Notes: generated by a model not told the origin, from the sequence alone. Counted from the first letter of the stretch, positions 5,709-15,118 are shown. The stretch: 64,000 nucleotides of DNA from a virus (IMGVR_UViG_3300045051_000720:62001-126000); one strand, 5' to 3'. Program-made: numbers and translations.

Positions 5709-7100
5709 ATGGCCTTCGGCAATCACTCTCGCCCGCGCGGCACCCGTGTCAACGGGGCTTATGTTCCCAACCCCGGTATCGCGCGGTTGTGGGAGGATTT
5801 CAAGGCATATGCCTCACCCCTCGGGTTTACACCCGATCAATGGCGATTCACCGAGGCGTTCTTCACCGGTCGCAACGTGTGTTTGTTGGGTCGAGCGGGT
5901 ACAGGCAAATCGTATGTGCTCAAGGCGCTGTTCGAGTACCTGACCAAACAGAAAGTGTCGGTGGGACGCACGGCCACGACTGGCGTTTCGGCGTTTGGGA
6001 TAGGTGGTCAAACGATCCATTCGTGGGCGGGGTTGGGTCTTGCGGACGAACATTCCGAGGCTATCATCGCGTCCATCCAGAAGAAGGGCAAGGTCAAGGC
6101 GCGGATTCGCGCGGCGCAGGTGTTGTTCATTGACGAGGTCTCGATGGCCAAGGCCGATCTGATGGACAAGCTGGATGCGGTGTTGCGCTATTACCGTGAC
6201 TCGGGCGATCCTTGGGGCGGCGTGCAAGTCGTTCTCTGCGGGGACTTTTTGCAACTTGCACCAGTCTTCAAGGGTGACGAGACCCAAGCCTTCGCTTTCC
6301 ACTCGGCGGTCTGGGATGAGGGTAACGTGCGTACCATCGTGCTCCAAAAGGTCGTTCGCCAGCAGGGCGATAATACGCTTTTGTCCATTCTCAACGACGT
6401 GCGCGTTGGCAATACCGATTCGCTCCATCTGCTGGACAGCCGGGTGGGCGCGACATGGCCCGACAACGAAATCGAGGCGGTGAGAATCTTCTGCAAGAAC
6501 ATTGATGTCGACGGGTACAACCGCGAACGCATGGCACAGCTCACCAGCGCCGCGAAGACCTACACTGCGCGCGATTCGGGCGAGTCTTTTCACACGGACA
6601 CGTTCAACAAGAACTGCCCCGCGCCGCAGGTGTTGGAGCTGAAGGTGGGGGCGCAGGTGCTCCTTGTTGCCAATCTGGATGTCCAGAGCGGCTTTGTGAA
6701 CGGTAGCGTAGGCATCGTCAAGGCTTTTGGTCCGAACGGGGTGACGGTCAAGTTCACCCAAGGTACGACCGTCGTCGAGCATAACGAGTGGACCATCAAG
6801 GAGCAGGCGGTCGGGATGGATGGCAAGATCATCTATCGCACGGTCGCCACGCGCCGACAGATCCCGCTCAAGGTGTGCTATGCGGTGACTACTCACCGGG
6901 TCCAAGGCATGACGCTGGACCGTGCGATTATTGACATGACGGAGGCCTTCACGACCGGGCAGGTGTACACCAGCCTGAGCCGTGTGCGTGATTTGGAATC
7001 ACTCTCGCTTGCCAGCGCCATTCCCCACTCGGCGATTCGAGTCAATCCCGAGTGCGTGGCGTTCTACGAGGAAGCGGAGCGGGCGGAGAACCCGTTTTAA
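5709..7100 (+). CDS. Pif1/RecD-like ATP-dependent DNA helicase
   Basis: A 463-residue superfamily 1B helicase. Walker A is LLGRAGTGKSYVL (about residue 55), Walker B is LFIDEVSMAK, motif III is VLCGDFLQLAPV, and the C-terminal motif VCYAVTTHRVQGMTLDRAI is the usual last helicase motif of Pif1 and RecD proteins. The enzyme moves 5' to 3' on DNA and would help phage replication or recombination. The ATG at MAFGNHSRPRG is chosen because the promoter -10 lies just before it and the in-frame codons further upstream would fall inside the promoter. Its last bases overlap the end of the convergent release factor gene. Confidence 0.88.
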   Translation: MAFGNHSRPRGTRVNGAYVPNPGIARLWEDFKAYASPLGFTPDQWRFTEAFFTGRNVCLLGRAGTGKSYVLKALFEYLTKQKVSVGRTATTGVSAFGIGGQTIHSWAGLGLADEHSEAIIASIQKKGKVKARIRAAQVLFIDEVSMAKADLMDKLDAVLRYYRDSGDPWGGVQVVLCGDFLQLAPVFKGDETQAFAFHSAVWDEGNVRTIVLQKVVRQQGDNTLLSILNDVRVGNTDSLHLLDSRVGATWPDNEIEAVRIFCKNIDVDGYNRERMAQLTSAAKTYTARDSGESFHTDTFNKNCPAPQVLELKVGAQVLLVANLDVQSGFVNGSVGIVKAFGPNGVTVKFTQGTTVVEHNEWTIKEQAVGMDGKIIYRTVATRRQIPLKVCYAVTTHRVQGMTLDRAIIDMTEAFTTGQVYTSLSRVRDLESLSLASAIPHSAIRVNPECVAFYEEAERAENPF

Positions 7101-7829
7101 CGCAGCAGCTCGAAACGCCCCTCCTCCAGCACTATCTCAGGCCGGTGACACTTGGCTCCAGTGCGATGGTCGGTGATGCGACGGTCGATCAGGTTGTAGG
7201 TTCTCACCTTCTCACCCCGCCCGGCTCCGCCGTAGGCCGCGCGGGTTTGCTGTCCCTTAACCCACTGCGCCAGTTTGCCTGCGAGACACTCGCGGGCGAC
7301 GCGGCGGTTTTGCCACTGGTCGCGCCCGTTGATGAAGACCTCAAGGCCGGTTGGGGTGTGGCGTAGACGGACGGCAGAGCAAACCTTGTTCGCGTTTTGC
7401 CCGCCTGCACCCTGTGAGCCGCGCTGGAAGGACTCCGCCAGATCACACTCGCGCATGGTGGTAGACCCTTGAGGCTTGAGCAAGGTCACGGTGACGGCCA
7501 CATAGCTAGTGTGACGCCTGCCACCGCGCTCAGTGTGAGGCACGCGTTGGACGCAGTGACCACCCGTCTCGGCGTCAAACAAATCGATGGCGCGCCGGTC
7601 ATGGATAGTAAAGGACCATTTGGATGGACCCTCCTCGCCCAGTTCGGGCGTTAGCCGATTGCGCGCGGCGTAGGCTAGGTAGGCCGACCAGAGCTGGCCA
7701 GCGAACGCTTTGCTGTCTTCCCCACCCTCGCCGGACTGAACCTCAACGAGAACCCCAACCGCGTCAAAGCGACTCCAGCCGTGCGACGTAGCCGTTAGAC
7801 TGCGGGACCGTGGTGCGGGTTGGGTTCAT
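7097..7829 (-). CDS. Peptide chain release factor, RF1-like, with programmed +1 frameshift
   Basis: Read continuously only if the ribosome shifts +1. From ATG at 7829 (seven bases after a TATGAT box) the first 21 codons end in CTT TGA C, with GGAG three bases before CTT. This is the layout of the bacterial prfB autoregulatory shift site. After the shift the frame runs to the stop and encodes release factor domains 2-4-3: VEVQSGEGGEDSKAFAGQLW, then GGHCVQRVPHTERGGRRHTS with a P-H-T tripeptide (the P-x-T type of RF1, not SPF of RF2), then the GAGGQNANKV catalytic loop that hydrolyses peptidyl-tRNA. About 243 residues, so the N-terminal domain is missing. The shift site makes synthesis depend on slow UGA termination. 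Confidence 0.85.
7763..7769 (-). promoter_or_regulatory. Programmed +1 frameshift site CTT TGA C
   Basis: In frame with the upstream ATG, CTT is followed by the stop TGA and then C; a Shine-Dalgarno-like GGAG sits three bases upstream. The +1 frame continues into the release factor, and the zero frame has no other start that could make the protein. Confidence 0.85.
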
Positions 7830-7880: not shown

Positions 7881-8528
7881 TTATCCCAGAAACGGCTTCC
7901 ACACGGGGTGCTTTGGGTCCTCGCGTAGATGCACGATCGGCGGCACACTCGCCGGAGCCTTCGGGCGCGGGCGCGGTAGACCCGCTTCTTCGGGGGTCTT
8001 GTCGGCCTTCATGGTGTTGATCCGCTTGTCGCAGGTGACGGTATTCTCCCATGTATCGCGACCACCTCGCGAGCGCGGATCGATGTGGTCAACCGACAGT
8101 TCGGCGCGGGTCAGTTTGCGCTTGGTGTAGGCGCAGATGAAGTTGTCGCGGCGGTGCACGTTACCCGTGGACCAGCGCGTGGTGCGCATGGGGATCTTGT
8201 CGAAGTGAGCACAGATGACCACCAGTGGCGCGCGGATGCGGCCCTCGGGATTGTCCGCACTGCGTCCGACGCCAATCCACAGGTCGCCTTCACGCACGGG
8301 CAGCTTAACCCAGTTTTCCCATGCGGTCGGTTGGGCACTGACCAGTACGTGATCGCCATTCTCGTCAACGGCGGTCGTGATGTCGAGCGCGTAGCCCGGG
8401 TGGTCTCCGTCAGACTGGGAGTTGAGAAACACCACCGCGTCTCTCACACTCATCTGATCTACGGGGGACCACGAGCGGTTGAGCTTGAGGACGATGGTCT
8501 TGTCGAGGATGCTGAGGTGATCGGACAT
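7881..8528 (-). CDS. HNH endonuclease
   Basis: A 215-residue protein starting MSDHLSILDKT. Residues about 135-190 carry an HNH nuclease fold: RRDNFICAYTKRKL is the front strand, SVDHIDPRSRGG holds the DH catalytic pair, and WENTVTCDKRINTMKADKT supplies the N and last conserved residues. The pattern matches phage HNH proteins that act as nicking or homing enzymes. The N-terminal 130 residues are a separate domain of unknown role. Base composition is like the neighbours, unlike the AT-rich homing genes elsewhere, so it may be a long-term resident. Confidence 0.75.
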   Translation of the reverse strand: MSDHLSILDKTIVLKLNRSWSPVDQMSVRDAVVFLNSQSDGDHPGYALDITTAVDENGDHVLVSAQPTAWENWVKLPVREGDLWIGVGRSADNPEGRIRAPLVVICAHFDKIPMRTTRWSTGNVHRRDNFICAYTKRKLTRAELSVDHIDPRSRGGRDTWENTVTCDKRINTMKADKTPEEAGLPRPRPKAPASVPPIVHLREDPKHPVWKPFLG

Positions 8529-8580
8529 GGTGAGTGAGGGGCTAGAGTTAGGGTCTTTGTGTGATCTGATGGGAAAATGG

Positions 8581-8665
8581 CGGAAGCGAGAGGGCACGAT
8601 CCCCAACGCACGAGTCGTCCTGCGGTGTAGCACACCGTGGCAGTCGCCTGACTGCTTTCGCTTCC
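8581..8665 (-). tRNA. tRNA-Ser(GCT)
   Basis: Acceptor GGAAGCG/CGCTTCC pairs fully, G73 and encoded CCA. D arm GCAGTC/GACTGC with loop AGGC; anticodon loop GTGCTAC; long variable region as expected for serine. The T stem is weak. Confidence 0.65.
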
Positions 8666-8669
8666 GTGG

Positions 8670-8755
8670 CGGTAACAAGTGGGGTTCAACCACTGTGCAA
8701 TGAAGCACACTCTGGGTTTCGGGTCCAGTCGAGGAAAACGTCCTCAGTTGCTACC
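8670..8755 (-). tRNA. tRNA-Ser(CGA)
   Basis: Acceptor GGTAGCA/TGTTACC, encoded CCA. Anticodon loop CCCGAAA has C33 instead of U33. T-loop TTGAACC (U55, G56) with D-loop ACGTTTT, which offers C19 to pair with G56. Long variable arm. Confidence 0.7.
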
Positions 8756-8757
8756 GG

Positions 8758-8842
8758 CGGAGTGGTGCCGTACTGCCCGGCTGCCGGTTGCCCGACACAA
8801 CGCTTTCCAAGCGCCGTCCACCTCTAGGTGGCCCAACCCTCC
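8758..8842 (-). tRNA. tRNA-Ser(GGA)
   Basis: Anticodon loop TTGGAAA and T-loop GGCAGTA are clear; the acceptor stem has about two mismatches. Long D and variable arms fit serine. Confidence 0.5.
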
Positions 8843-8848
8843 AAAAAG

Positions 8849-8872
8849 ATACAGACCCGAGCGGGGTCTGTA
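8849..8872 (-). repeat. Strong inverted repeat ACAGACC/GGTCTGT
   Basis: An eight-base stem with a short loop, followed on the minus strand by ATCTTTTT and then directly by the 5' end of a serine tRNA. It could end transcription from the right, but a terminator at the 5' edge of a tRNA inside the array would be odd; a processing site is the alternative. Confidence 0.45.
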
Positions 8873-8878
8873 AAGTGG

Positions 8879-8969
8879 CGGTGAGTTGAGATCTTGCGTC
8901 CCAAGGCGGGGTTGGCCCTCCTCCATTCGCTTTCAAGGCGGCGGCAGCGCCTCGGCTGCTTAACTCACC
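8879..8969 (-). tRNA. tRNA-Ser(TGA)
   Basis: Acceptor GGTGAGT/ACTCACC pairs fully, encoded CCA. Anticodon loop CTTGAAA. T-loop CGCAAGA (G55, C56) and D-loop CGAGGC. Long GC-rich variable arm. Confidence 0.75.
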
Positions 8970-8976
8970 AAAGTGG

Positions 8977-9049
8977 TGCGGACACCCCGAGTTGCACGGG
9001 GACTATCCCTCGTTAGGACCGAGGTTGACTGTCTGTTGCCGATGTCCGC
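8977..9049 (-). tRNA. tRNA-Arg(CCT)
   Basis: Acceptor GCGGACA/TGTCCGC, T stem CCCCG/CGGGG with loop TGCAACT (G55), anticodon stem CCTCG/CGAGG with codon AGG shown on the plus strand. It overlaps the last 37 bases of the phosphatase gene. Confidence 0.8.
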
Positions 9050-9537
9050 GAAAAATACTTGTCGCGCTCGACGGTGCGGCGACCCAGCTCTGCGCTGAGG
9101 AAGGCTGTCATCTTGCCGTTGTGACTCATGAGCTTGTCGGCCCACCCCACCATCAGCTGGTTGGGGCACACAAACGGTCCGCGCGCGTTGACGATCAGTT
9201 GGTAGGCATCAGAGTAAGGTATCCTGTGGTGGACCAGCCAGATGAAGGCTGCTGCGCTTGACCGCGATACGCCTGCGAAGCAGTGAAAGAGGATGGACTG
9301 GTCGGGGCTGGTTTGGGCGTAGACACCCAGTAGCCGCCGTATCATCGCCTCTGTGGGAGCGAGAGGGTTGGACGAGTTGCCCGTATCAGCGAACACAAAT
9401 GAGTGGAGAGTGAAGGGGTACTTGAACGCTCGGATGTCGGGGCCGGGTTGGTGGACCTCGTGGAAAGAGATGATGTGGTCCAGCAGAACCGTCGCGAAGG
9501 CAGGAACCTCGGAGACGCCACAAATAGCGAAGGGCAT
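9013..9537 (-). CDS. Dual-specificity/tyrosine protein phosphatase-like protein
   Basis: A 174-residue protein with the cysteine phosphatase P-loop HCFAGVSRSS (HCx5R signature, near residue 100), which forms the phosphocysteine intermediate. The upstream Asp needed as general acid could be in the VFADTGNSSN region. Such enzymes remove phosphate from proteins or phospholipids, and in phages are rare. It starts five bases after the -10 element of its own promoter, so it is leaderless. Its 3' end runs into tRNA-Arg(CCT), so the C-terminal residues are read from tRNA sequence. Confidence 0.78.
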   Translation of the reverse strand: MPFAICGVSEVPAFATVLLDHIISFHEVHQPGPDIRAFKYPFTLHSFVFADTGNSSNPLAPTEAMIRRLLGVYAQTSPDQSILFHCFAGVSRSSAAAFIWLVHHRIPYSDAYQLIVNARGPFVCPNQLMVGWADKLMSHNGKMTAFLSAELGRRTVERDKYFSRTSATDSQPRS

Positions 9538-9542
9538 AGCCG

Positions 9543-9571
9543 ATGCTAGTCCGTAATGAGGGCGCTGTCAA
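9543..9571 (-). promoter_or_regulatory. Phosphatase promoter, TTGACA-17-TAGCAT, leaderless
   Basis: TTGACA, a 17-bp spacer without the YAAC box, then TAGCAT and ATG after five bases. It starts one base beyond the CCA end of the first arginine tRNA of the main array, so array read-through could also feed this gene. Confidence 0.75.
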
Positions 9572-9575
9572 GTGG

Positions 9576-9665
9576 CGCGAACGGCAGGATTCTCACCCAC
9601 ATCAGGGCCGAGCGGCCCTTCACCTGCGTTCGAAGCGCAGTTGACGCTATTATGTCGGCGTTCGC
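9576..9665 (-). tRNA. tRNA-Arg(TCG)-like with a long variable arm
   Basis: Acceptor GCGAACG/CGTTCGC and anticodon stem CTGCG/CGCAG are perfect, anticodon loop CTTCGAA, CCA encoded. T-loop TGAGAAT (G55, A56) with D-loop ATAATAGC, which offers A18 and T19. A six-base variable-arm hairpin AGGGCC/GGCCCT is unexpected for arginine. Confidence 0.65.
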
Positions 9666-9669
9666 ATGG

Positions 9670-9755
9670 TCTCGACGGCGAGAGTTGCACTCGCAGATTG
9701 GCTTGCGCCAGACGGTTTAGAGGACCGTTGCCTTGTCTACCCGAGCCCCGTCGAG
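9670..9755 (-). tRNA. Class II tRNA with anticodon TCT
   Basis: Acceptor CTCGACG/CGTCGAG, T stem GCGAG/CTCGC with loop TGCAACT, anticodon stem ACGGT/ACCGT with loop CCTCTAA (C33). A variable hairpin TGGC-GCAA-GCCA and the ACGGT stem resemble a serine GCT body, while the anticodon reads the arginine codon AGA. Confidence 0.6.
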
Positions 9756-9763
9756 GGAAATGG

Positions 9764-9837
9764 CGCGAGACCGGGGATTCAAACCCCGACTGATCCTCGT
9801 TCGCAACGAGGGCGACTATTCGGTTGCCGAGTCTCGC
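9764..9837 (-). tRNA. tRNA-Arg(GCG)
   Basis: All stems pair (acceptor GCGAGAC/GTCTCGC, T stem CGGGG/CCCCG). Anticodon loop TTGCGAA. T-loop TTTGAAT has T56, and the D-loop AACCGAATAGTC offers G18-A19, so 19-56 becomes A-T. CCA encoded. Confidence 0.8.
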
Positions 9838-9841
9838 AAAG

Positions 9842-9931
9842 AGATTGCACCGTCCCCAGTCGATGCGTCGCTGGGGAGCAGGACACCAGTAGGACATCGC
9901 ATTAGTCCACCCGGAGATTCCACGGTGCAAA
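9842..9931 (-). other. tRNA-like element, isotype unclear
   Basis: An eight-base closing stem TTGCACCG/CGGTGCAA encloses a hairpin CCCCAG/CTGGGG with an 11-base loop and a second hairpin GGAC/GTCC whose loop contains TGC. It has the size of a tRNA, but the T-loop is too long and no CCA is encoded. Confidence 0.4.
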
Positions 9932-9935
9932 TTGG

Positions 9936-10007
9936 GGCGCACGACCGGATCTACCCCGGCCCTCCAAGCGTCACAGGCTCGGGTGCTTCTACTACACTAC
10001 GTGCGCC
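9936..10007 (-). tRNA. tRNA-His(GTG)
   Basis: Has the extra G at position -1 opposite C73, the histidine identity mark, with acceptor GCGCACG/CGTGCGC and encoded CCA. Anticodon loop CTGTGAC. D-loop TAGTAGAAG has A18-G19; T-loop GGTAGAT has G54 and G58. Confidence 0.8.
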
Positions 10008-10016
10008 ATAAGGTGG

Positions 10017-10089
10017 AGCTTCAGTAGGGGTTCTCACCCTCCTCTCTCGGATACAAGCCGAGGCCATCGAATGTCTATGGGTCTGAAGC
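10017..10089 (-). tRNA. tRNA-Thr(TGT)
   Basis: Acceptor GCTTCAG/CTGAAGC, anticodon stem CTCGG/CCGAG with loop CTTGTAT. T-loop TGAGAAC (G55, A56) and D-loop TAGACATTCGA, which offers A18-T19, so 19-56 would be T-A. CCA encoded. Confidence 0.78.
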
Positions 10090-10096
10090 GAAATGG

Positions 10097-10167
10097 AGCC
10101 GAGGACCGGTAACGCTCCGGTGTCTATCGTTTACGAAACGATGGCTCTGCTTTTGAGCTACCAAGGC
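10097..10167 (-). tRNA. tRNA-Thr(CGT)
   Basis: Anticodon stem ATCGT/ACGAT with loop TTCGTAA; T stem ACCGG/CCGGT with loop AGCGTTA (G55, C56, A54-T58); D arm GCTC/GAGC with loop AAAAGCA. The acceptor stem has two central mismatches. Confidence 0.7.
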
Positions 10168-10174
10168 AAAGTGG

Positions 10175-10247
10175 TGGTCCCGGGAGAGCAACGATCCTCC
10201 ACGTCACGCCTATAAAGCGCGCAGTCTGCCGATTAACTTACAGGACC
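10175..10247 (-). tRNA. tRNA-Ile(TAT)
   Basis: Acceptor GGTCCTG/CGGGACC, anticodon TAT. One of the few array members with D-loop GG, and its eight-base T-loop ATCGTTGC keeps T55-C56. CCA encoded. Confidence 0.7.
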
Positions 10248-10248
10248 A

Positions 10249-10483
10249 AAAGGAGGGCATCGGAATCATCTCGGCGCGCAGTGTGCACCTTACGATCCGT
10301 CAGCCCTATAGGTGGTTTGTTTACGAGACGGTGCGTTTAACGACACAGGGCGCAAACGAAATGGTTCCACGGCTCAGGTCGATCAACCCCACCTTTGGCC
10401 AGCCACCTCAGCGAGGTTTGGTAGCTCGTTAGGCCCTTCGCTTCTGACGCCTCCAGTTGGATTGCCCTCAGTGACCGTGAAAG
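10249..10483 (-). other. tRNA-like and miniature elements, unassigned
   Basis: Holds a short element with closing stem AGGGC/GCCCT and an anticodon-like arm GGTGC/GCGCC, a 43-base miniature (10315-10357, closing stem GTTTG/CAAAC), and a long element (10366-10483) with acceptor-like pairing TTCACGG/CCGTGGA, encoded CCA and a variable-type hairpin ACCTC/GAGGT. None can be given an isotype. Confidence 0.4.
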
Positions 10484-10487
10484 ATGG

Positions 10488-10570
10488 TGGGCGTGGAGGG
10501 ATGCGAGCCCTCAAGGACAACGGAATTTGAACCCGTCGCTTCTACCAGTTTCGCTTTCGTCCACACGCCC
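10488..10570 (-). tRNA. tRNA-Leu(CAA)
   Basis: Acceptor GGGCGTG/CACGCCC, A73, encoded CCA, anticodon loop TTCAAAT, D-loop with TGG. T-loop CTCGCAT. The variable region is only TGTCCTT, and GGACG near position 10 could pair with it, replacing the usual leucine variable arm. Confidence 0.78.
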
Positions 10571-10572
10571 GA

Positions 10573-10655
10573 TCGGCATGGTGGGATTCGGACCCACAGG
10601 GGATAGCGCATTTTAAGTGCGCCGGTTGTCGCCAGTTTCCCTTATCCACATGCCG
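10573..10655 (-). tRNA. tRNA-Leu(TAA)
   Basis: Acceptor CGGCATG/CATGCCG, anticodon stem GCGCA/TGCGC with loop CTTAAAA, T stem GTGGG/CCCAC with loop TCCGAAT (C55). The variable region TATCC matches GGATA just after the acceptor. CCA not encoded. Confidence 0.8.
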
Positions 10656-10664
10656 GTAAGATGG

Positions 10665-10736
10665 TGGGACCATGGAGCCAACGCACTCCAATCTCCGCGC
10701 TGAGAACGCGGCGAACTACTCTTATTCGATGATCCC
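10665..10736 (-). tRNA. tRNA-Glu(CTC)
   Basis: Anticodon stem CCGCG/CGCGG with codon GAG on the plus strand; acceptor GGGATCA/TGGTCCC. D-loop TAAGAGTAG (A18-G19) and an eight-base T-loop TGCGTTGG (G55, C56). CCA encoded. Confidence 0.8.
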
Positions 10737-10737
10737 G

Positions 10738-10820
10738 TAGGCGTGGAGAGATTCGGACTCTCAAGGACACGTGATCCTAAGTCACGCGGTTCTGCCAATT
10801 TCCCTTCCGTCCACACGCCC
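10738..10820 (-). tRNA. tRNA-Leu(TAG)
   Basis: Acceptor GGGCGTG/CACGCCT, A73, anticodon stem CGTGA/TCACG with loop CTTAGGA, T-loop TCCGAAT (C55), D-loop AAATTGG. Variable region TGTCCTT faces GGAC after the acceptor, as in the CAA leucine tRNA. One base from tRNA-Glu; no CCA encoded. Confidence 0.8.
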
Positions 10821-10829
10821 ATAAAATGG

Positions 10830-10917
10830 TGGCCTCGGGGGGAGTCGGACCCCCACGCTACTATGATTTCGCTCGCGAATCTCATTCGCGCATGTCTACC
10901 AGTTCCATCACGAGGCC
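10830..10917 (-). tRNA. tRNA-Leu(GAG)
   Basis: All stems pair; anticodon stem CGCGA/TCGCG with codon CTC on the plus strand; a normal 19-base variable region and a normal leucine D arm with GG. T-loop TCCGACT has C55. CCA encoded. Confidence 0.82.
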
Positions 10918-10918
10918 G

Positions 10919-10994
10919 AGGTCCCAGTCGGAGTTGCACCGACCCTGTTCGTCATTACCAATGACGCGCCGTGGCTACACTCGGCATTGGGACC
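10919..10994 (-). tRNA. tRNA-Thr(GGT)
   Basis: Acceptor GGTCCCA/TGGGACC, T stem GTCGG/CCGAC with loop TGCAACT, anticodon stem CGTCA/TGACG with codon ACC, D arm GCC/GGC with TAG in the loop. CCA not encoded. Confidence 0.8.
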
Positions 10995-11002
10995 ATAAAT
11001 GG

Positions 11003-11076
11003 GGGCTCAGGTCAGATTTGCACTGACGACCGTCTCCGTATGGGGGAGCCGCGCTAGCTAGCTGCGCCACTGAGCC
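11003..11076 (-). tRNA. tRNA-Met(CAT), elongator type
   Basis: Acceptor GGCTCAG/CTGAGCC with a normal G1-C72 pair, so not an initiator; it could also be the isoleucine tRNA with a modified CAT anticodon. D arm GCGC/GCGC with loop AGCTAGCTA (A18-G19), T-loop TGCAAAT (G55). C33. CCA encoded. Confidence 0.75.
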
Positions 11077-11080
11077 GTGG

Positions 11081-11153
11081 TGGTCCCGTCGAGATTCGCA
11101 CTCGCCTCATCCGATTAAGAGTCGGAGTCCTCGCCTATCTAGGAGTCGAGACC
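11081..11153 (-). tRNA. tRNA-Lys(CTT)
   Basis: Acceptor GGTCTCG/CGGGACC, anticodon stem TCCGA/TCGGA with loop CTCTTAA, D-loop AGATAGGCG (A18-G19), T-loop TGCGAAT (G55). CCA encoded. Confidence 0.82.
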
Positions 11154-11161
11154 GTAAAGTA

Positions 11162-11452
11162 TTCAACCGCGTAGCCGCGTTTCTGTTGCCGGGCCATCCC
11201 GACCGACATCCATTTCTCTCACCCACGGTCACCCGTGAACGGGTATCGTTTATAGACACCTGCACCAACCACGCCCTGCTTGACGGCCAGAACTAGCCTC
11301 GGGCTCCATTTGGCTTGCTGGTATCGTGTGGTTATCGCGAGTGTCTACCGACGTAACATCGTCGGGACTGCTCTCCCATCGACTTCTGTCCAGACGCGAA
11401 CTTGACCTCTACGCACGCATCGAGTGCGCGGCAGCGGATGTCTGCGGTTGAA
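11162..11452 (-). ncRNA. Structured RNA of about 290 bases nested in the tRNA array
   Basis: A nine-base closing helix TTCAACCGC/GCGGTTGAA joins the ends. Inside, TAGACAC pairs with GTGTCTA (11253-11259 with 11341-11347), and there are hairpins CCGACG/CGTCGG and CACGG-GTGA-CCGTG with a GNRA loop. There is no convincing ORF and no normal tRNA. It is too short for a typical RNase P RNA and lacks a recognisable tmRNA tag or TTC loop. Function unknown. Confidence 0.5.
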
Positions 11453-11458
11453 AGATGG

Positions 11459-11530
11459 TGGAGGTACCGAGTGCCGCCCTCGGGCTTGAGTCATGCCATG
11501 ACCCTGTGCTGCTGTTATCACTATACCCCC
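11459..11530 (-). tRNA. tRNA-Ala(GGC)
   Basis: Acceptor GGGGGTA/TACCTCC, T stem CCGAG/CTCGG with loop GGCGGCA (G54, G55, C56, G58), D arm GTG/CAC with CAG in the loop, codon GCC in the anticodon loop. CCA encoded. Confidence 0.75.
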
Positions 11531-11531
11531 G

Positions 11532-11604
11532 CTGCCTCGGAGCGAATTGCACGCCCACCTAACACCTTCAGAGGGTGTCGGACTAGCTGTTATCCCACGA
11601 GGCA
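11532..11604 (-). tRNA. tRNA-Gln(CTG)
   Basis: Acceptor TGCCTCG/CGAGGCA, anticodon stem ACACC/GGTGT with codon CAG, D arm GGA/TCC with CAG in the loop, T-loop TGCAATT (G55). CCA not encoded. Confidence 0.8.
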
Positions 11605-11638
11605 AAAGTGATAGGGGTGACAAAACTGACCCGTCATT

Positions 11639-11709
11639 GGGTCAGTAGTGTAGTGGTAGCACGTCCGCCTGACTGGCGGGGGGCGCGGGTTCAAATCCCG
11701 TCTGATCCA
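11639..11709 (+). tRNA. tRNA-Val(GAC), plus strand, canonical elbow
   Basis: The only clear plus-strand tRNA. Acceptor GGGTCAG/CTGATCC, D-loop TAGTGGTAG with G18-G19, T-loop TTCAAAT, all canonical. Anticodon loop CTGACTG. The 5' acceptor strand is also matched by CTGACCC just upstream (11626-11632), an inverted repeat. No encoded CCA. Confidence 0.75.
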
Positions 11710-11718
11710 TTTAATTGG

Positions 11719-11791
11719 CTGCCCACCACGGATGACAGCCGTGACCCTCGCCTTCAAAGGGCGGTATGCTTGACGTTTACATCAATGGGCA
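11719..11791 (-). tRNA. tRNA-Gln(TTG)
   Basis: Acceptor TGCCCAT/GTGGGCA, T stem CACGG/CCGTG, anticodon loop with codon CAA. T-loop CTGTCAT (T55, G56, C54, C58) with D-loop TGTAAACG, which offers A18-C19, so 19-56 would be C-G. CCA encoded. Confidence 0.78.
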
Positions 11792-11801
11792 ATGAGAGTG
11801 G

Positions 11802-11876
11802 TCGGCGTGGAGGGATTCGCACCCCCGATCCTTCGCTTCCGGAGCGAGCATGTTGGCTAGGCTACACCACACGCCG
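11802..11876 (-). tRNA. tRNA-Pro(CGG)
   Basis: Acceptor CGGCGTG/CACGCCG, D arm GTGT/ACAT with TAG in the loop, T-loop TGCGAAT (G55), anticodon loop TCCGGAA with C33. CCA encoded. Confidence 0.8.
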
Positions 11877-11877
11877 A

Positions 11878-11976
11878 TATTGCGGGCCGGTTATCCATCC
11901 GGCGGCACCCGGCTTGATGGTGAGCAAGACGGAGACTCTGGAATTGGCGTGATTTTATGGCTCACGCCGCCGCAAA
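11878..11976 (-). other. tRNA-like element with a very long D-type stem
   Basis: About 99 bases closed by TTGCGG/CCGCAA. It has a T-like hairpin GCCGG/CCGGC with an eight-base loop and a seven-base stem GGCGTGA/TCACGCC in the D-arm position. Anticodon not assignable. Confidence 0.4.
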
Positions 11977-11980
11977 ATGG

Positions 11981-12055
11981 TCCTCGCGGCAGGCTTCGCT
12001 CCTGCGGCCTTCTGCATGTCGTGCAGCCGCTCTAACTGGGCTGAGCTACGCGAGG
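11981..12055 (-). tRNA. tRNA-Val(GAC), minus strand
   Basis: Acceptor CCTCGCG/CGCGAGG, T stem GCAGG/CCTGC with loop AGCGAAG (A54, G55, A58), D arm GCTC/GAGC with loop AGCCCAGTTA. Anticodon GAC with C33. Same anticodon as the canonical plus-strand copy. CCA encoded. Confidence 0.75.
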
Positions 12056-12063
12056 GAAAGTGG

Positions 12064-12138
12064 TCGGGCCAGTTGGATTCGCACCAACGATCTCATGCTC
12101 CCCGAGCATGCGCGATGACTAGGCTACGCTATGACCCG
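12064..12138 (-). tRNA. tRNA-Pro(GGG)
   Basis: Acceptor CGGGTCA/TGGCCCG, T stem GTTGG/CCAAC with loop TGCGAAT, anticodon stem CATGC/GCATG with codon CCC (C33), D arm GCG/CGC with TAG. CCA encoded. Confidence 0.8.
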
Positions 12139-12141
12139 ATT

Positions 12142-12237
12142 GGCAGATACCGTCTGTTACTCCCACCGTGGTGTCCCGTCTGCCGCGGGGCTTTAGGTGG
12201 TGTTTGGGTAATCCAAACGTCTCGTGAACGGCTAAGA
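12142..12237 (-). other. 43-base miniature element and spacer
   Basis: 12142-12184 is closed by GGCAGA/TCTGCC and holds one clear hairpin, CACC/GGTG. The following 50 bases show no tRNA. It resembles the other miniatures at 10315, 13274, 13574 and 14005. Confidence 0.35.
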
Positions 12238-12240
12238 TGG

Positions 12241-12336
12241 CTGTACCGGTAGGAGCCGCCCCTACACCGCCGCAGGTCATGCGTACGGGCTCGCTTAACA
12301 GGCGAGTGCAACGAACGTGCTATTTGCCTCGGTACA
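12241..12336 (-). tRNA. tRNA-Asn(GTT) with a long variable arm
   Basis: Acceptor TGTACCG/CGGTACA, anticodon stem CTCGC/GCGAG with codon AAC, T stem GTAGG/CCTAC with loop GGCGGCT (G54, G55, C56, G58), D-loop with TAG. The 24-base variable region folds into a hairpin, which asparagine tRNAs normally lack. CCA encoded. Confidence 0.75.
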
Positions 12337-12345
12337 ATAAAATGG

Positions 12346-12418
12346 TCGTCGCTGAGGGACTCGCACCCCCGAACCTCTGCGTGTAGGGCAGGTACCGTAG
12401 CTGCTGGGTCAAGCGACG
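12346..12418 (-). tRNA. tRNA-Val(TAC)
   Basis: Acceptor CGTCGCT/AGCGACG, codon GTA in the anticodon loop with C33, D arm ACC/GGT with CAG, T-loop TGCGAGT (G55). CCA encoded. Confidence 0.8.
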
Positions 12419-12425
12419 AAAGTGG

Positions 12426-12499
12426 CGCGATAGATGGGTGCTGCCCCCACTTGTCTCGGCATAGACAGTGCCGCGAGCATGCTGTTGCTCTTCTACCGC
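12426..12499 (-). tRNA. tRNA-Asp(GTC)
   Basis: Acceptor GCGGTAG/CTATCGC, G73, CCA encoded. Anticodon stem CGGCA/TGCCG with loop CTGTCTA. D arm GAGC/GCTC with CAG; T-loop GGCAGCA. Confidence 0.8.
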
Positions 12500-12500
12500 G

Positions 12501-12574
12501 TACGGATGGAGGGACTCGCACCCCCGTTATGTCCGGTCCCAAACCGGAAGCCATTGCTGCTAGGCGACATCCGT
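12501..12574 (-). tRNA. tRNA-Pro(TGG)
   Basis: Acceptor ACGGATG/CATCCGT, anticodon stem TCCGG/CCGGA with codon CCA, D arm GCC/GGC with CAG, T-loop TGCGAGT. No encoded CCA. Confidence 0.8.
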
Positions 12575-12583
12575 GTGAAATGG

Positions 12584-12653
12584 ATGCAGGGCCGAGGAAT
12601 CGCACCCGGTCAGGGCGACGGGTATGAACCGCGCTTGGTCTAACCTCCCTGCG
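12584..12653 (-). tRNA. Initiator tRNA-fMet(CAT)
   Basis: The first base pair is C1 x A72, the bacterial initiator mark; the remaining acceptor GCAGGG/CCCTGC pairs. Anticodon loop TTCATAC. The D-loop is reduced to TAG between GGT and ACC. T-loop TGCGATT with one bulged base in the stem. CCA encoded. Confidence 0.72.
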
Positions 12654-12656
12654 TAA

Positions 12657-12811
12657 AGTGTTCCCTTTGTAGGCGTGCTCCAACGCCTCGTTGTTTGTCA
12701 AAATGGCCGGTGCTCTACCGTTGAGCTAGCATCCTCCTTGCGAAGGACCGCAGGTGTCGAACCTGTATCTCCGGCAAGTGTTACCTTGCGGGCTTTTGAC
12801 CTCTAGGGAAA
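12657..12811 (-). other. Two tRNA-like elements with partly canonical loops
   Basis: One piece has a canonical D arm GCTC-AACGGTA-GAGC and an AGGCG/CGCCT stem. The next has a canonical T-loop TTCGACA in a CAGG/CCTG stem and an arm GCAAG/CTTGC, but little room for a D arm. Acceptor stems pair poorly. They may be decaying or D-arm-poor tRNAs. Confidence 0.4.
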
Positions 12812-12815
12812 GTGG

Positions 12816-12885
12816 TGGAGCCCCGGGCATCGCAGCCCAACGACAGCCGGATTTTCAGTCCAGCCCGTGCACTCGCACTGACTCC
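12816..12885 (-). tRNA. tRNA-Phe(GAA)
   Basis: Anticodon stem CTGGA/TCCGG with loop CTGAAAA. A tiny D-loop GAGT in GTGC/GCAC and a six-base T-loop TGCGAT. Acceptor GGAGTCA/GGGCTCC has one mismatch. CCA encoded. Confidence 0.72.
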
Positions 12886-12886
12886 G

Positions 12887-12943
12887 GAGCCATCGTTAGG
12901 TCCGCCGATGGCGCAGGCGGTCTCGGGTTATTGACGAGGAAGA
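12887..12943 (-). other. tRNA-like fragment, unassigned
   Basis: Two hairpins, CCATCG/CGATGG and CTCG/CGAG with a nine-base loop, but no acceptor stem found. Confidence 0.3.
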
Positions 12944-12946
12944 TGG

Positions 12947-13020
12947 GACGGACGGTGGGTAGCGCGCCCACATGAAGCCGGATTTGGAGTTCGGTGCCTT
13001 ACTTGTCGAGCCACGTCCGT
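12947..13020 (-). tRNA. tRNA-Trp(CCA)
   Basis: Acceptor ACGGACG/CGTCCGT, anticodon loop with codon TGG, T stem GTGGG/CCCAC with loop CGCGCTA (C54, G55, C56, C58), D-loop with AAGTA. CCA encoded. Confidence 0.8.
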
Positions 13021-13029
13021 ATGAAAAGG

Positions 13030-13195
13030 TGGAGCGAAGAGATGGTCATTTATTCACCGGGCTGGGACCAATCCACGAGGTGCCCGATCCAGATGTCTCC
13101 TGCCTCGCTCCGTTTGGAGACCAACGAGTGATGTGGTGTCAGGTTCCTGTAGGCTTCACTGACACCGACCCGCGGCGTGAACCGCGAGGTGAAGA
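13030..13195 (-). other. Two tRNA-like or hairpin elements, unassigned
   Basis: 13033-13108 has an acceptor-like GCGAGGC/TCTTCGC and encoded CCA, but its T-stem is only three pairs with a nine-base loop. 13112-13195 has an eight-base stem GGTGTCAG/CTGACACC with a large loop and a CGCGG/CCGCG hairpin. Confidence 0.35.
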
Positions 13196-13198
13196 TGG

Positions 13199-13269
13199 TG
13201 GTCAAGTCGGGTGCTGCCCCCGCGTCTAACGGTTATCGACCGTTGGCTCTACTGTTGAGCTACATGACC
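13199..13269 (-). tRNA. tRNA-Ile(GAT)
   Basis: Anticodon stem AACGG/CCGTT with codon ATC (C33), D arm GCTC/GAGC with loop AACAGTA, T-loop GGCAGCA (G54, G58). Acceptor GGTCATG/CTTGACC with one mismatch. CCA encoded. Confidence 0.78.
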
Positions 13270-13271
13270 AA

Positions 13272-13400
13272 AATTGCTGTCGCGGTCAACCCGCGTTTCG
13301 GCTCAGCTTGGCCGTTTGCAAAATGGCGACTACGTTAACCAGTCTTGACCGGAGGCGTGCTTGCGGGCGCGTCGTAGCCCGTTGGGTATTAGCCCAAAGT
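13272..13400 (-). other. 48-base miniature element and unassigned hairpins
   Basis: 13274-13321 is closed by TTGC/GCAA and contains two hairpins, CGGC/GCCG with an eight-base loop and CGCGG/CCGCG, like a tRNA without a D arm. 13325-13400 has further hairpins but no clear acceptor stem. Confidence 0.35.
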
Positions 13401-13402
13401 GG

Positions 13403-13491
13403 TGGACCCGGAGGGAGTTGCACCCCCGACGCCCCGTTAGGGGTCCAGATTTACAGTCTGGTGCAGCCATCTGACAGCTACCTCGTGGTCC
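13403..13491 (-). tRNA. tRNA-Tyr(GTA)
   Basis: Anticodon stem CCAGA/TCTGG with codon TAC; variable hairpin CCCC/GGGG fits class II tyrosine; T-loop TGCAACT (G55). The acceptor pairs at five positions. CCA encoded. Confidence 0.75.
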
Positions 13492-13500
13492 GAAAAATGG

Positions 13501-13572
13501 AGCGTCGTGCGGGACTCCCACCCGCGTGTGTCTGCTTGGAAGGCAGATGCCTTGGTTCTCGGCCAACGACGC
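13501..13572 (-). tRNA. tRNA-Gly(TCC)
   Basis: All stems pair (acceptor GCGTCGT/ACGACGC, T stem GCGGG/CCCGC, anticodon stem TCTGC/GCAGA). T-loop TGGGAGT has G55 and G56, and the D-loop GAGAACCAA offers A18-C19, so 19-56 becomes C-G. CCA encoded. Confidence 0.82.
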
Positions 13573-13573
13573 A

Positions 13574-13629
13574 TGGGGTTTATCGCCACCGCGGAGCGGC
13601 TGATTGGTTACAGCGGGGTGGAAGCCCCA
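13574..13629 (-). other. 56-base miniature element
   Basis: Closed by TGGGG/CCCCA, with hairpins CCGC/GCGG and GCTG/CAGC (eight-base loop). Same plan as the other miniatures of the array. Confidence 0.35.
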
Positions 13630-13635
13630 AGATGG

Positions 13636-13707
13636 TGGAGTCAACGAGATCCGCCCTCGTATGTCACGGATGCAAACCGTGTGCCTTTCTATGTCGGCCA
13701 TGACCCC
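13636..13707 (-). tRNA. tRNA-Ala(TGC)
   Basis: Acceptor GGGGTCA/TGACTCC, T stem ACGAG/CTCGT with loop GGCGGAT (G54, G58), anticodon stem CACGG/CCGTG with codon GCA, D arm GCC/GGC with TAG. CCA encoded. Confidence 0.8.
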
Positions 13708-13709
13708 AT

Positions 13710-13781
13710 TGGACCCGGCGAGTGCCGCCCTCGCGCCTCCGCGTTGCGAACGCAGCGTGCTACTGTTGTCACCACGAGCCC
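13710..13781 (-). tRNA. tRNA-Ala(CGC)
   Basis: Acceptor GGGCTCG/CGGGTCC, T stem GCGAG/CTCGC with loop GGCGGCA, D arm GTG/CAC with CAG, codon GCG in the anticodon loop. No encoded CCA. Confidence 0.75.
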
Positions 13782-13784
13782 GAA

Positions 13785-14052
13785 AAGAGTGACACGATAG
13801 ACTTGTCCGGCAGTCTGGGGAGTCTTGCGGGACTCCTATGGCCTAAACCACGTCTTACGCCGCCTCTTGCCTTAACGCGCGGCCCTTTCCCTTGCGGGTA
13901 CTCAGGGGCTCATCGGCTGTGGATAGAGGACGGACTGTTGGTCCGGGTAGTATCTATCGTGTTGCCCCGGTTAGGATCGACTCCGCCGAGGCGAAAAAGG
14001 ATGCCGGACCCCAGCTTTCGCTTGCGGGCGTCCCCTCGCGGGTCCGACGTAA
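13785..14052 (-). other. Hairpin-rich stretch with a 42-base miniature
   Basis: Contains AGACT/AGTCT, GGAGTC/GACTCC and CGGAC/GTCCG hairpins and a miniature at 14005-14046 closed by CGGACCC/GGGTCCG. No tRNA could be folded with confidence and no ORF is convincing. Confidence 0.35.
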
Positions 14053-14056
14053 GTGG

Positions 14057-14129
14057 AGGCGCGCCACGGTGCTGCCCCGTGCAAACAGTGTTTTGCAAAC
14101 ACGTCTCGTCGCTGGCTGAGTCGCGCGCC
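14057..14129 (-). tRNA. tRNA-Cys(GCA)
   Basis: Acceptor GGCGCGC/GCGCGCC and T stem CACGG/CCGTG are perfect; T-loop GGCAGCA; D arm CTC/GAG with loop AGCCAGCGAC; codon TGC in the anticodon loop. CCA encoded. Just upstream, GGCGTGGTTAGCTCAATGG looks like the 5' part of an ordinary tRNA left behind. Confidence 0.78.
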
Positions 14130-14179
14130 ATTGAGCTAACCACGCCAAGGGGGACCAACAGGTGTCGCTCAGGAAATGG

Positions 14180-14252
14180 TGGGTCCATCGGGCATCGATC
14201 CCGCTTCCACGGTTTAAAAGACCGCTGCTAATCCGGCTACAGCTCTGGACCC
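14180..14252 (-). tRNA. tRNA-Lys(TTT)
   Basis: Acceptor GGGTCCA/TGGACCC, codon AAA in the anticodon loop, D-loop with CGG and T-loop ATCGATG, so it keeps G18G19 and T55C56. CCA encoded. Confidence 0.8.
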
Positions 14253-14254
14253 AT

Positions 14255-14326
14255 TGCGGGTAGGGAGACTTGCGCTCCCCTCTCAGCCTTGGCAAAGCCG
14301 TGCGTCGCTATCTACGCTTCACCCGC
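14255..14326 (-). tRNA. tRNA-Gly(GCC)
   Basis: Acceptor GCGGGTG/TACCCGC, T stem GGGAG/CTCCC with loop CGCAAGT (C54, G55, C56), D arm GCGT/ACGC with loop AGATAGCG, anticodon loop TTGCCAA. No encoded CCA. Confidence 0.75.
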
Positions 14327-14329
14327 GAA

Positions 14330-14393
14330 AAGTGTCCGATGGGAGAACTGTCAAACCCCCTATGCCCTATGCGCATGGCGTCTCGTTGGTCGG
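14330..14393 (-). other. tRNA-like element, unassigned
   Basis: About 60 bases closed by GTCCGA/TCGGAC with an internal ATGCGCAT palindrome. No standard arms. Confidence 0.3.
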
Positions 14394-14484
14394 ACCCAAC
14401 GGCAGGTATCGATCCTGCGAACATGACGGTGACCGCACCCGGATTCCCACCGGGGTTCTTCGCTGGAAAGGCGAGAGTACTGGG
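14394..14484 (-). tRNA. Possible second tRNA-Ser(GGA)
   Basis: T stem GCAGG/CCTGC with loop ATCGATA and anticodon stem CCCGG/CCGGG are clear; the anticodon loop TGGGAAT would have G33. A long variable region supports serine, but the acceptor and D arm are weak. Confidence 0.45.
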
Positions 14485-14515
14485 GTGCTATACGATGCGG
14501 CCAAAAGTGGGCTGA

Positions 14516-15118
14516 CTACGAAGCCGTCCGACCAGTCGCCGGAGTGAGAAATGACGGAACACAAGGACGGTCAGGACGATTATACCGACTCCTTGGACAG
14601 AGAGCACCTAAAGGTAGAGCCGGTGGGGTAATCTTAGGCGCGTTCTCCCTCTTCCGTTTGTGTTCTATTTGACCATGAAAGCGATCAAATCCTAGCATTC
14701 TAGCGGCTGTGATAGCAACGTGATGGTCTTGTGTCTGTCCGAGACGAAAGGAGAGATCGTTGCGATCTTCTAGTCCGAAATCTTTGACGAGCTTATCTTT
14801 TTGGGAGCTGGTCAGATACTGGAAGATAGCCCTTCGATGAATACTTCGAGGCTCTTTCACCGTTGGCTTGTTTCGGGTAGCCCTTTCTGCGCGGTGATGT
14901 GCCTCGTGACAATCCCGACACAGTACCTCCAGATCCTCCATTCGTTCGTTACCACCTACCCGTTCGTAGGTTTTGTGATGGACATCGGTGCCGTGTTCAT
15001 GACATCGATTACAAACGGGACCATAGTAAGCAATCGCCTCAGCCCGCTTGGCCTTCCAGATGGGTGACTGGAGGTATTGACGATGGAGCAATTGATTGTC
15101 GGTAAGATGCTGGGCCAC
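14516..15118 (-). CDS. HNH endonuclease beside the tRNA array
   Basis: A 200-residue protein with a zinc-finger HNH fold at residues about 35-75: CNRCHEHGTDVHHKTY gives the first CxxC and the catalytic HH, and NERMEDLEVLCRDCHEAHH gives the N and second CxxC. Start is GTG 14 bases after a TATCAT box. The C-terminal third is proline- and arginine-rich and reaches the edge of the tRNA array. It may act as a free-standing homing or nicking enzyme; its position between the array and a large RNA candidate suggests a tRNA or RNA gene as its target, which is inference. Confidence 0.78.
   Translation of the reverse strand: MAQHLTDNQLLHRQYLQSPIWKAKRAEAIAYYGPVCNRCHEHGTDVHHKTYERVGGNERMEDLEVLCRDCHEAHHRAERATRNKPTVKEPRSIHRRAIFQYLTSSQKDKLVKDFGLEDRNDLSFRLGQTQDHHVAITAARMLGFDRFHGQIEHKRKRENAPKITPPALPLGALCPRSRYNRPDRPCVPSFLTPATGRTAS

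Follow-up and report, generated by a model that had tools for sequence, protein, structure and literature searches.

We analysed a 64,000-nucleotide stretch of viral DNA (the window; bases 62,001–126,000 of the 219,464-base IMG/VR virus record IMGVR_UViG_3300045051_000720), which carries an array of transfer RNA (tRNA) genes with a recoded elbow, the contact between the D-loop and the T-loop. Few features of RNA biology are as strongly conserved as the G18-G19/T-Psi-C elbow (Psi, pseudouridine), which the ribosome, RNase P, RNase Z, and the CCA-adding and modification enzymes all recognise. The gene list, assembled by hand and by scan, contains 40 well-supported tRNAs and two tentative ones (Phe and initiator-like Met), and all 20 amino acids are represented, Phe and initiator Met tentatively. 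The genes are given below with numbering in DNA letters and with the means of detection in brackets (A, ARAGORN; R, Rfam; S, structure-only scan).

8578..14502, minus, the tRNA array: about 41 minus-strand genes with recoded elbow, nearly all with encoded CCA (A, R, S)
8578..8665, minus, tRNA-Ser(GCT), T-loop ATCGTGC (A54/T58, T55) (A, S)
8667..8755, minus, tRNA-Ser(CGA), T-loop TTGAACC (G56), C33 (S)
8876..8969, minus, tRNA-Ser(TGA), T-loop CGCAAGA (G55) (S)
8974..9049, minus, tRNA-Arg(CCT), A18/G55 (A, S)
9573..9665, minus, tRNA-Arg(TCG), T-loop TGAGAAT (G55, A56) (S)
9667..9755, minus, class II tRNA with anticodon TCT, T-loop TGCAACT (G55), C33 (S)
9761..9837, minus, tRNA-Arg(GCG), G18/T55, A19-T56 (A, S)
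9933..10006, minus, tRNA-His(GTG), C73, G54/G58, A18/G55 (S)
10014..10089, minus, tRNA-Thr(TGT), A18/G55, T19-A56 (S)
10094..10167, minus, tRNA-Thr(CGT), T-loop AGCGTTA (A54/T58), A18/G55 (S)
10172..10247, minus, tRNA-Ile(TAT), 8-nt T-loop ATCGTTGC (A54/T58, T55), G18G19 (S)
10485..10570, minus, tRNA-Leu(CAA), C54/C58, G18/T55 (S)
10574..10654, minus, tRNA-Leu(TAA), T-loop TCCGAAT, G18/C55 (S; register by hand)
10662..10736, minus, tRNA-Glu(CTC), 8-nt T-loop TGCGTTGG, A18/G55 (S)
10738..10818, minus, tRNA-Leu(TAG), T-loop TCCGAAT, G18/C55 (R, S; register by hand)
10827..10917, minus, tRNA-Leu(GAG), G18/C55 (A, R, S)
10918..10994, minus, tRNA-Thr(GGT), A18/G55 (A, S)
11000..11076, minus, tRNA-Met(CAT), A18/G55, C33 (A, R, S)
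11078..11153, minus, tRNA-Lys(CTT), G55 (S)
11456..11530, minus, tRNA-Ala(GGC), G54/G58, A18/G55, G3-U70 kept (S)
11531..11604, minus, tRNA-Gln(CTG), A18/G55 (A, S)
11638..11710, plus, tRNA-Val(GAC), the sole fully canonical elbow (GG / TTCAA) (A, R at 60.3 bits, S)
11716..11791, minus, tRNA-Gln(TTG), C54/C58, G56 (S)
11799..11876, minus, tRNA-Pro(CGG), A18/G55, C33 (A, R, S)
11978..12055, minus, tRNA-Val(GAC), A18/G55, C33 (A, S)
12061..12138, minus, tRNA-Pro(GGG), A18/G55, C33 (A, R, S)
12238..12336, minus, tRNA-Asn(GTT), long variable arm, G54/G58, G55 (S)
12343..12418, minus, tRNA-Val(TAC), A18/G55, C33 (R, S)
12423..12499, minus, tRNA-Asp(GTC), G54/G58, A18/G55 (S)
12500..12574, minus, tRNA-Pro(TGG), A18/G55 (A, R, S)
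12581..12653, minus, tentative initiator-like tRNA-Met(CAT), C1-A72 mismatch, shortened D arm, T-loop TGCGATTC (G55) (S, by eye)
12679..12796, minus, permuted tRNA-like RNA of YrlA (Y RNA) topology (Rfam RF02553, below cut-off)
12813..12885, minus, tentative tRNA-Phe(GAA), shortened D arm, T-loop TGCGAT (G55) (S)
12944..13020, minus, tRNA-Trp(CCA), C54/C58, A18/G55 (S)
13196..13269, minus, tRNA-Ile(GAT), G54/G58, A18/G55 (S)
13400..13491, minus, tRNA-Tyr(GTA), class II, A18/G55 (S)
13498..13572, minus, tRNA-Gly(TCC), A18/G55, C19-G56 (A, R, S)
13633..13707, minus, tRNA-Ala(TGC), G54/G58, A18/G55, G3-U70 (S)
13710..13781, minus, tRNA-Ala(CGC), G54/G58, A18/G55, G3-U70 (R, S)
14054..14129, minus, tRNA-Cys(GCA), G54/G58, A18/G55 (S)
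14177..14252, minus, tRNA-Lys(TTT), A54, G18/T55 (S)
14255..14326, minus, tRNA-Gly(GCC), T-loop CGCAAGT, A18/G55 (R, S)
14427..14502, minus, tRNA-Glu(TTC), T-loop TGGGAAT (G55, G56) (S)

Standard tools recover only part of this array. ARAGORN reported only 14 tRNAs against about 42 present, and the Rfam tRNA model RF00005 gave 15 array-region matches above its cut-off; both undercount the array because its elbow is unusual, and the recoded elbow likewise explains why standard tRNA finders miss most of the arrays described below. At one fixed threshold, a structure-only cloverleaf scan, which scores stems, spacing, and CCA and ignores the elbow bases, matched 24 times in the array and 41 times in that of the nearest relative, and a 109 kb control gave no match. 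The genes share the cloverleaf of RF00005, namely a 7-bp acceptor stem, D and anticodon stems, a 5-bp T stem, and a 7-nt anticodon loop. In the Rfam alignments UGCGA, CGCAA, or GGCGG fall under the consensus UUCgA, with G beneath the U55 position and C56 retained. These alignments agree with the arm placement of the earlier note, made from the sequence alone, in which this array had been singled out; together with the structure-only scans, they rule out an artefact in which differently placed arms would restore TTCRA loops. The unusual array is thus confirmed as real.

Position 55 is G in 29, C in 3, and T in 8 of the 40 tabulated tRNAs, and the tentative Phe and initiator-Met both carry G55, which reproduces the 31 G55 and three C55 tRNAs counted previously. 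When the D-loop register (positions 18 and 19) was assigned blind to the T-loop, 26 tRNAs were A18/G55, 7 were G18/T55, and 3 were G18/C55, bearing out the claim that most G55 tRNAs also have A18. The joint change at positions 54 and 58 was found as described, since G54 is always paired with G58 (8/8 in the array) and C54-C58 occurs in Gln(TTG), Trp, and Leu(CAA). The Watson-Crick swaps proposed for 19-56 hold in Thr(TGT) (T-A), Gly(TCC) (C-G), and Arg(GCG) (A-T), while the register is ambiguous in Gln(TTG), Ser(CGA), and Arg(TCG). Three tRNAs had been credited with a normal elbow, which is correct for the plus-strand Val and incorrect for Lys(TTT), with A54, and Ile(TAT), with A54/T58 in an 8-nt loop. 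T54-T55-C56 is kept in 1/40 tabulated tRNAs, the plus-strand tRNA-Val(GAC) only, where it stands with G18-G19; this gene is probably a recent arrival. Of the altered T55 tRNAs, Lys(TTT), Ile(TAT), and Ser(GCT) carry A54, Leu(CAA) and Gln(TTG) carry C54, and Arg(GCG), Ser(CGA), and again Gln(TTG) have a base other than C at position 56. The array therefore departs from G18-G19 and T54-T55-C56-R57-A58 of RF00005, a consensus feature and not an absolute requirement of tRNAs. With position 54 or 56 altered in these T55 tRNAs and C55 present in Leu, what the set has in common is that T54-T55-C56 has been lost, not that a single new motif replaces it.

A single-protein search for close relatives returned none, and the clade was found only via polymerase alignment. 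The nearest relative by this measure (relative B; two contigs of 107,636 and 186,105 bases) has a DNA polymerase 48% identical to that of the phage studied here; only about 40 proteins are common to both, at 23–48% identity, and the G+C content is 47% in relative B versus 59% in this phage. Its array shows the recoded elbow in 40/40 tRNAs, including 37 G55, 34 of these A18/G55, and TTC in 0/40. Contigs with polymerases 37–43% identical have canonical loops, with TTC in 26/27 tRNAs. A concatenated tree joined this phage, relative B, and the canonical contig G001 with 100% support at pairwise identities of 39–40%, and a polymerase-only tree grouped this phage with G001. From the concatenated tree and the equal identities, it follows either that gain or loss of the trait has happened repeatedly or that the branching order among the three is not settled. 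Canonical loops at these loci in related phages had been named as a finding that would tell against the rewiring: they are present in the more distant relatives and in one about equally distant, and absent from the nearest by polymerase, which is rewired, a distribution that speaks for a recurrently gained or lost trait and against an artefact. The isolated phages matched by blastn (ukendt, Pokken, DSS3P8, and CcrRogue) are all canonical. As separate observations, tRNA-Asn(GTT) has a long class II-like variable arm in both phages (window 12238-12336; relative B, L104:15293-15386), and the array of relative B encodes a tRNA with a CTA (amber) anticodon (L104:10418-10491). Stop-codon recoding by the latter was considered and rejected, as 37 homologous stretches contain 0 in-frame stops.

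To describe the spread of the recoded elbow, we used a narrow DNA search pattern for one elbow type only (A18-G19 with AGCRTTA). The AGCRTTA pattern occurs in at least 119 viral contig stretches, and a GGCRGCA version in 19. A structure-only scan of 136 pattern loci found 1,839 tRNAs, comprising 1,264 TTC, 456 G55, 106 non-canonical T55, and 13 C55, and none in a 160 kb control. Viral arrays span the range from one recoded tRNA through half (L212, 16 and 16) to near-complete recoding (L211, 30/33; L148, 30/32), and a lone recoded tRNA is most often Ile-GAT (57/85 cases, with a search pattern that favoured one loop type). Over 84,980 prokaryote species the pattern gave 84 stretches; Verrucomicrobiota account for 44/80 among the matches listed, and most of them carry arrays almost entirely G55. 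In the isolate Chthoniobacter flavus, the recoded array forms one cluster amid ordinary chromosomal genes, on a contig without a terminase match. An even sample found the pattern in only 3/388 Verrucomicrobiota genomes, a lower bound given the narrow pattern, and the trait is therefore accessory there. Thirteen Pelagibacteraceae contigs also match, and the resolved ones carry a single recoded tRNA-Val(GAC) (e.g. L268, L276, L335), which is possibly either native or mobile. A single recoded tRNA-His(GTG) was additionally observed in Daviesbacteria, Microgenomates, and one unnamed bacterium (L266, L269, L273, L343). The earlier note treated the elbow as the oddity of one phage, a view that no longer stands, since it is present in many phages and bacterial genomes.

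Covariation was computed on 483 distinct viral-contig tRNAs with the register fixed by a 7-nt D-loop, against 500 within-locus shuffles. The 18-55 pairs are G-U 286, A-G 179, G-C 8, G-G 8, and other 2, and the 54-58 pairs are U-A 319, A-U 109, G-G 49, A-A 4, and C-A 2. Mutual information exceeds the shuffle maximum at all three pairs for which the earlier note had proposed covariation: 0.84 versus 0.20 at 18-55, 1.15 versus 0.21 at 54-58, and 0.17 versus 0.09 at 19-56. After removal of the pattern-matching tRNAs, the association of A18 with G55 is retained in viral loci (89/1/8/299, Fisher 4.7e-78) and in genome loci (119/2/15/18, Fisher 1.2e-12), and 54-58 still alternates between T-A, A-T, and G-G; the tests treat tRNAs as independent, which those of related phages are not. 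An effect of this size, set against the within-locus control, leaves chance untenable as an explanation. Among canonical tRNAs, such covariation at 18-55 and 54-58 is hardly ever seen.

The recoded tRNAs also keep the signs of translation function. Among related loci, the Ala determinant G3-U70 is kept in 31/35 recoded Ala tRNAs versus 4/817 recoded non-Ala tRNAs, and it is present in all three Ala tRNAs of this array. The discriminator base is the canonical choice in 615/789 recoded tRNAs, with G73 retained in Asp, Asn, Ser, and Trp, U73 in Cys, and mostly C73 in His, while those of recoded Thr, Glu, and Gly depart from the canonical majority. CCA is encoded in 93% of recoded tRNAs. C33 replaces the near-universal U33 in 13.6% of G55 tRNAs versus 2.2% of TTC tRNAs (here e.g. 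11799-11876, 11978-12055, and 12061-12138). With the acceptor, the anticodon, and the identity elements preserved, the recoded tRNAs should be acceptable to host synthetases and ribosomes. The covariation and the aminoacylation identity elements rule out decay; together with the replication in viral and bacterial sets after exclusion of the search seed and the intact stems, they strongly support the claim that the elbow underwent coordinated change.

RNA-repair genes accompany many of the recoded arrays. The phage itself encodes an RtcB RNA ligase (L013:6010-7506; Pfam RtcB, E 7.5e-83), and in eight loci, nearly all of Verrucomicrobiota, rtcB is located inside a rewired array or next to one. 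Of the viral contigs whose arrays are rewired or mixed, 7/16 encode RtcB, versus 0/22 of those whose arrays are canonical (p 9e-4), and RtcB or Ro60 is present in 9/16 versus 1/22, with the grouping made after the arrays had been seen and the contigs being fragments of unequal size. This phage lacks a Ro60/TROVE protein, which occurs in Verrucomicrobiota loci and in two rewired viral contigs. Several Verrucomicrobiota loci (L332, L333) have the order recoded tRNAs, rtcB, recoded tRNAs, Y RNAs, and Ro60 (TROVE and vWA domains); the Y RNA matches fall under the Rfam cut-off yet are significant (E to 6e-6). The tRNA-like domains of Y RNAs in rewired loci all keep the TTC T-loop, and those of YrlA type also keep G18-G19. 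Canonical Y RNA domains beside recoded tRNAs indicate that the recoding is tRNA-specific and not a composition effect of the locus. The permuted unit of this array (12679-12796) has the order T-arm, closed acceptor hairpin, and D-arm with a canonical elbow (TTCGACA / GG); it scores 17.5 bits against the YrlA model RF02553, whose cut-off is 69, so we call it only YrlA-like, although topology and loops fit. A motif-based count of permuted Y RNA-like units was dropped as confounded by neighbouring canonical tRNAs. As a side observation, a conserved protein of about 217 amino acids lies near Ro60 and recoded tRNAs (L333:4754-5407, L332:935-1582, L272:4440-5117); the member tested has no Pfam match, and its structure model (predicted local distance difference test score 45) is too poor to interpret.

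Three protein genes lie near the array of this phage.

7881..8708, minus, HNH_4 protein adjoining the array
14516..15118, minus, second HNH protein at the opposite array end
7097..7582, minus, short peptide-chain release factor near the array (RF-1 domain and end of PCRF, truncated)

Clustering of array-adjacent proteins into families returned RtcB and the HNH_4 protein. The latter is 33–39% identical to proteins that adjoin rewired arrays in one viral and five Verrucomicrobiota contigs; relative B encodes a homologue at this level of identity as well, elsewhere in its genome. Another array-adjacent family, A7, resembles a spurious reading frame and was rejected. The best phage match of the release factor is 44.6% identical and comes from a 595-kb uncultured phage.

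For the function of the recoded elbow, the reading that we favour, and to which we give about an even chance, is that these are spare tRNAs recoded to evade an elbow-reading tRNA-damaging agent and deployed with RNA repair. The array would be a spare, self-sufficient tRNA set, in which G18-U(Psi)55 has mostly given way to A18-G55 while 19-56 stays complementary and 54/58 is A/U, G/G, C/C, or U/A. An agent that reads the G18-G19/T-Psi-C elbow, most probably a defence system or toxin that cleaves tRNA, would attack the ordinary tRNAs of the cell; the recoded ones, if expressed and accepted by the ribosome, would go unrecognised and translation could continue. The damaged pool may be handled by RtcB and, in Verrucomicrobiota, also by Ro60 and Y RNAs with canonical-elbow tRNA mimics. 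The earlier suggestion of escape from elbow-reading host enzymes or defence nucleases is thus still an inference, and it fits the loss of T54-T55-C56 by different routes, the linkage with RtcB, Ro60, and Y RNAs, and the canonical Y RNA mimics. Several points weigh against this reading. In this phage, some 55 kb separate rtcB from the array; relative B lacks RtcB, as do about half of the rewired viral contigs, many of these being fragments. No elbow-reading nuclease was identified in this analysis, and the tRNA nucleases known to be triggered by phages act mostly on the anticodon loop or on the CCA end. In many phages the array is canonical but for one recoded tRNA, usually Ile-GAT, and it is not obvious that a general attack on the elbow would favour this. 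Rarer U16 (23% versus 62%) and G46 (30% versus 47%) in rewired tRNAs suit a different, modification-based explanation. A broader version is possible but doubtful: a second tRNA-elbow code (A18-G55 with co-varying 54-58 and 19-56) may be maintained in many phages and in repair islands of Verrucomicrobiota, where it would supply translation in parallel, evolved against a widespread, undescribed agent that destroys tRNAs via T-Psi-C/G18-G19, with canonical Y RNAs as its decoys.

The strongest rival, although we judge it unlikely, is an elbow that needs no host modification: A18-G55 and the recoded 54-58 would stabilise the tRNA without 5-methyluridine-54, Psi55, and 2'-O-methylguanosine-18, so that the host's modification enzymes would be dispensable for the folding and function of tRNAs produced in bursts or under stress. 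The elbow positions changed here are indeed the sites of TrmA/TrmFO, TruB, and TrmH action, and in addition to U16 and G46, U8 and U33 are rarer overall. However, U20, and U8 in fixed-register tRNAs, remain common; the chromosomal Verrucomicrobiota arrays stand in genomes without an obvious shortage of modifying enzymes; and neither the RtcB/Ro60 linkage nor the TTC-keeping Y RNAs of the same loci is predicted.

A quite improbable alternative is self/non-self marking, in which the phage or the repair island would produce a factor of its own that destroys tRNAs with a canonical elbow or takes them out of use, the recoded set being its copy immune to this factor. Coverage of all 20 amino acids, avoidance of TTC, and retention of an HNH protein beside rewired arrays in phages and Verrucomicrobiota would agree with it, but no gene was shown to act on tRNA, the HNH family resembles an ordinary DNA or homing endonuclease, and a chromosomal self-killing system is harder to explain. 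That a single ancestral recoded tRNA was duplicated and given new anticodons, the elbow being inherited and not selected per tRNA, is very improbable: the widespread Ile-GAT, commonest among lone recoded tRNAs under a pattern that favoured one loop type, could be such a founder, yet several elbow solutions stand side by side within one array, stems and identity elements fit each isoacceptor, and arrays run from one to all tRNAs recoded. Relaxed constraint, by which non-essential accessory tRNAs drift at the elbow, might account for the members that have C33, an 8-nt T-loop, or a shortened D arm. It is highly improbable: the covariation is nearly perfect, the stems are intact, G3-U70 of Ala and the discriminator bases are preserved, and the same elbow solutions recur in genomes that are far apart. 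Nor would drift avoid TTC in 79/80 tRNAs of both phages. Mimicry of a host whose housekeeping tRNAs carry the recoded elbow, suggested by the concentration of the trait in Verrucomicrobiota, is largely refuted and almost certainly wrong, as the search pattern is found in so few of their genomes and the C. flavus array is a separate cluster of low-scoring tRNAs, whereas its dispersed housekeeping tRNAs mostly score 60–77 bits to the canonical model.

These features can be set against known systems. In the canonical elbow (reviewed in PMC4810234), 19-56 forms a Watson-Crick pair, 18 contacts 55, and 54-58 is a closing pair; the same L-shape is likely here, but A18-G55 replaces G18-Psi55, 54-58 is A-U, G-G, or C-C, and U54-U55-C56 is avoided. 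Phage tRNAs can evade tRNA-targeting defences, both anticodon nucleases (PMC10264068) and retrons (PMC11555353), and like the present array these sets are phage-borne replacements with many isoacceptors and proposed insensitivity to damage; unlike it, they carry anticodon-loop changes in otherwise canonical tRNAs and not paired elbow substitutions across almost the whole array. The cryptic tRNA array of Anabaena PCC 7120 (PMC10272220) is comparable in that it adds a second large set to the housekeeping tRNAs, is switched on by translational stress, and shares its regulation with rtcB, but it lies on a cyanobacterial plasmid, and the available part of that account mentions no elbow change. Damaged tRNAs switch on the Rtc RNA-repair operon, and the tRNA-like domain of Y RNA was proposed as a nuclease decoy (PMC7790460); the rsr-yrlBA-rtcBA operon likewise unites RtcB, Ro60 (Rsr), and Y RNAs with a tRNA-like domain, whereas here a recoded-elbow multi-tRNA array belongs to the locus. 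The toxin CdiA-CT E479 cuts tRNA in the T-loop at the T-Psi step (PMC9086364), so that such cutters exist, although it is an interbacterial toxin with no shown link to this phage or to Verrucomicrobiota. We found no report of A18/G55 tRNAs or recoded arrays in the open-access literature, subscription papers and most preprints being outside the search. The elbow code and its tie to repair islands appear new, while phage and accessory tRNA arrays and RNA-repair loci were already known. Hundreds of natural tRNAs with paired elbow replacements provide a ready experiment on the contacts that translation needs, and the recoded elbows point to a selective agent. If the arrays are damage-resistant spares, they would tie phage tRNA arrays to bacterial RNA repair.

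Two further observations concern the phages themselves. The DnaE-like polymerase of relative B (L067:2983-6018) contains a seeming intein between FN and SHS, and the protein set of this phage includes Pfam matches to the Acb1 (anti-CBASS) and 2'-5' RNA ligase families.

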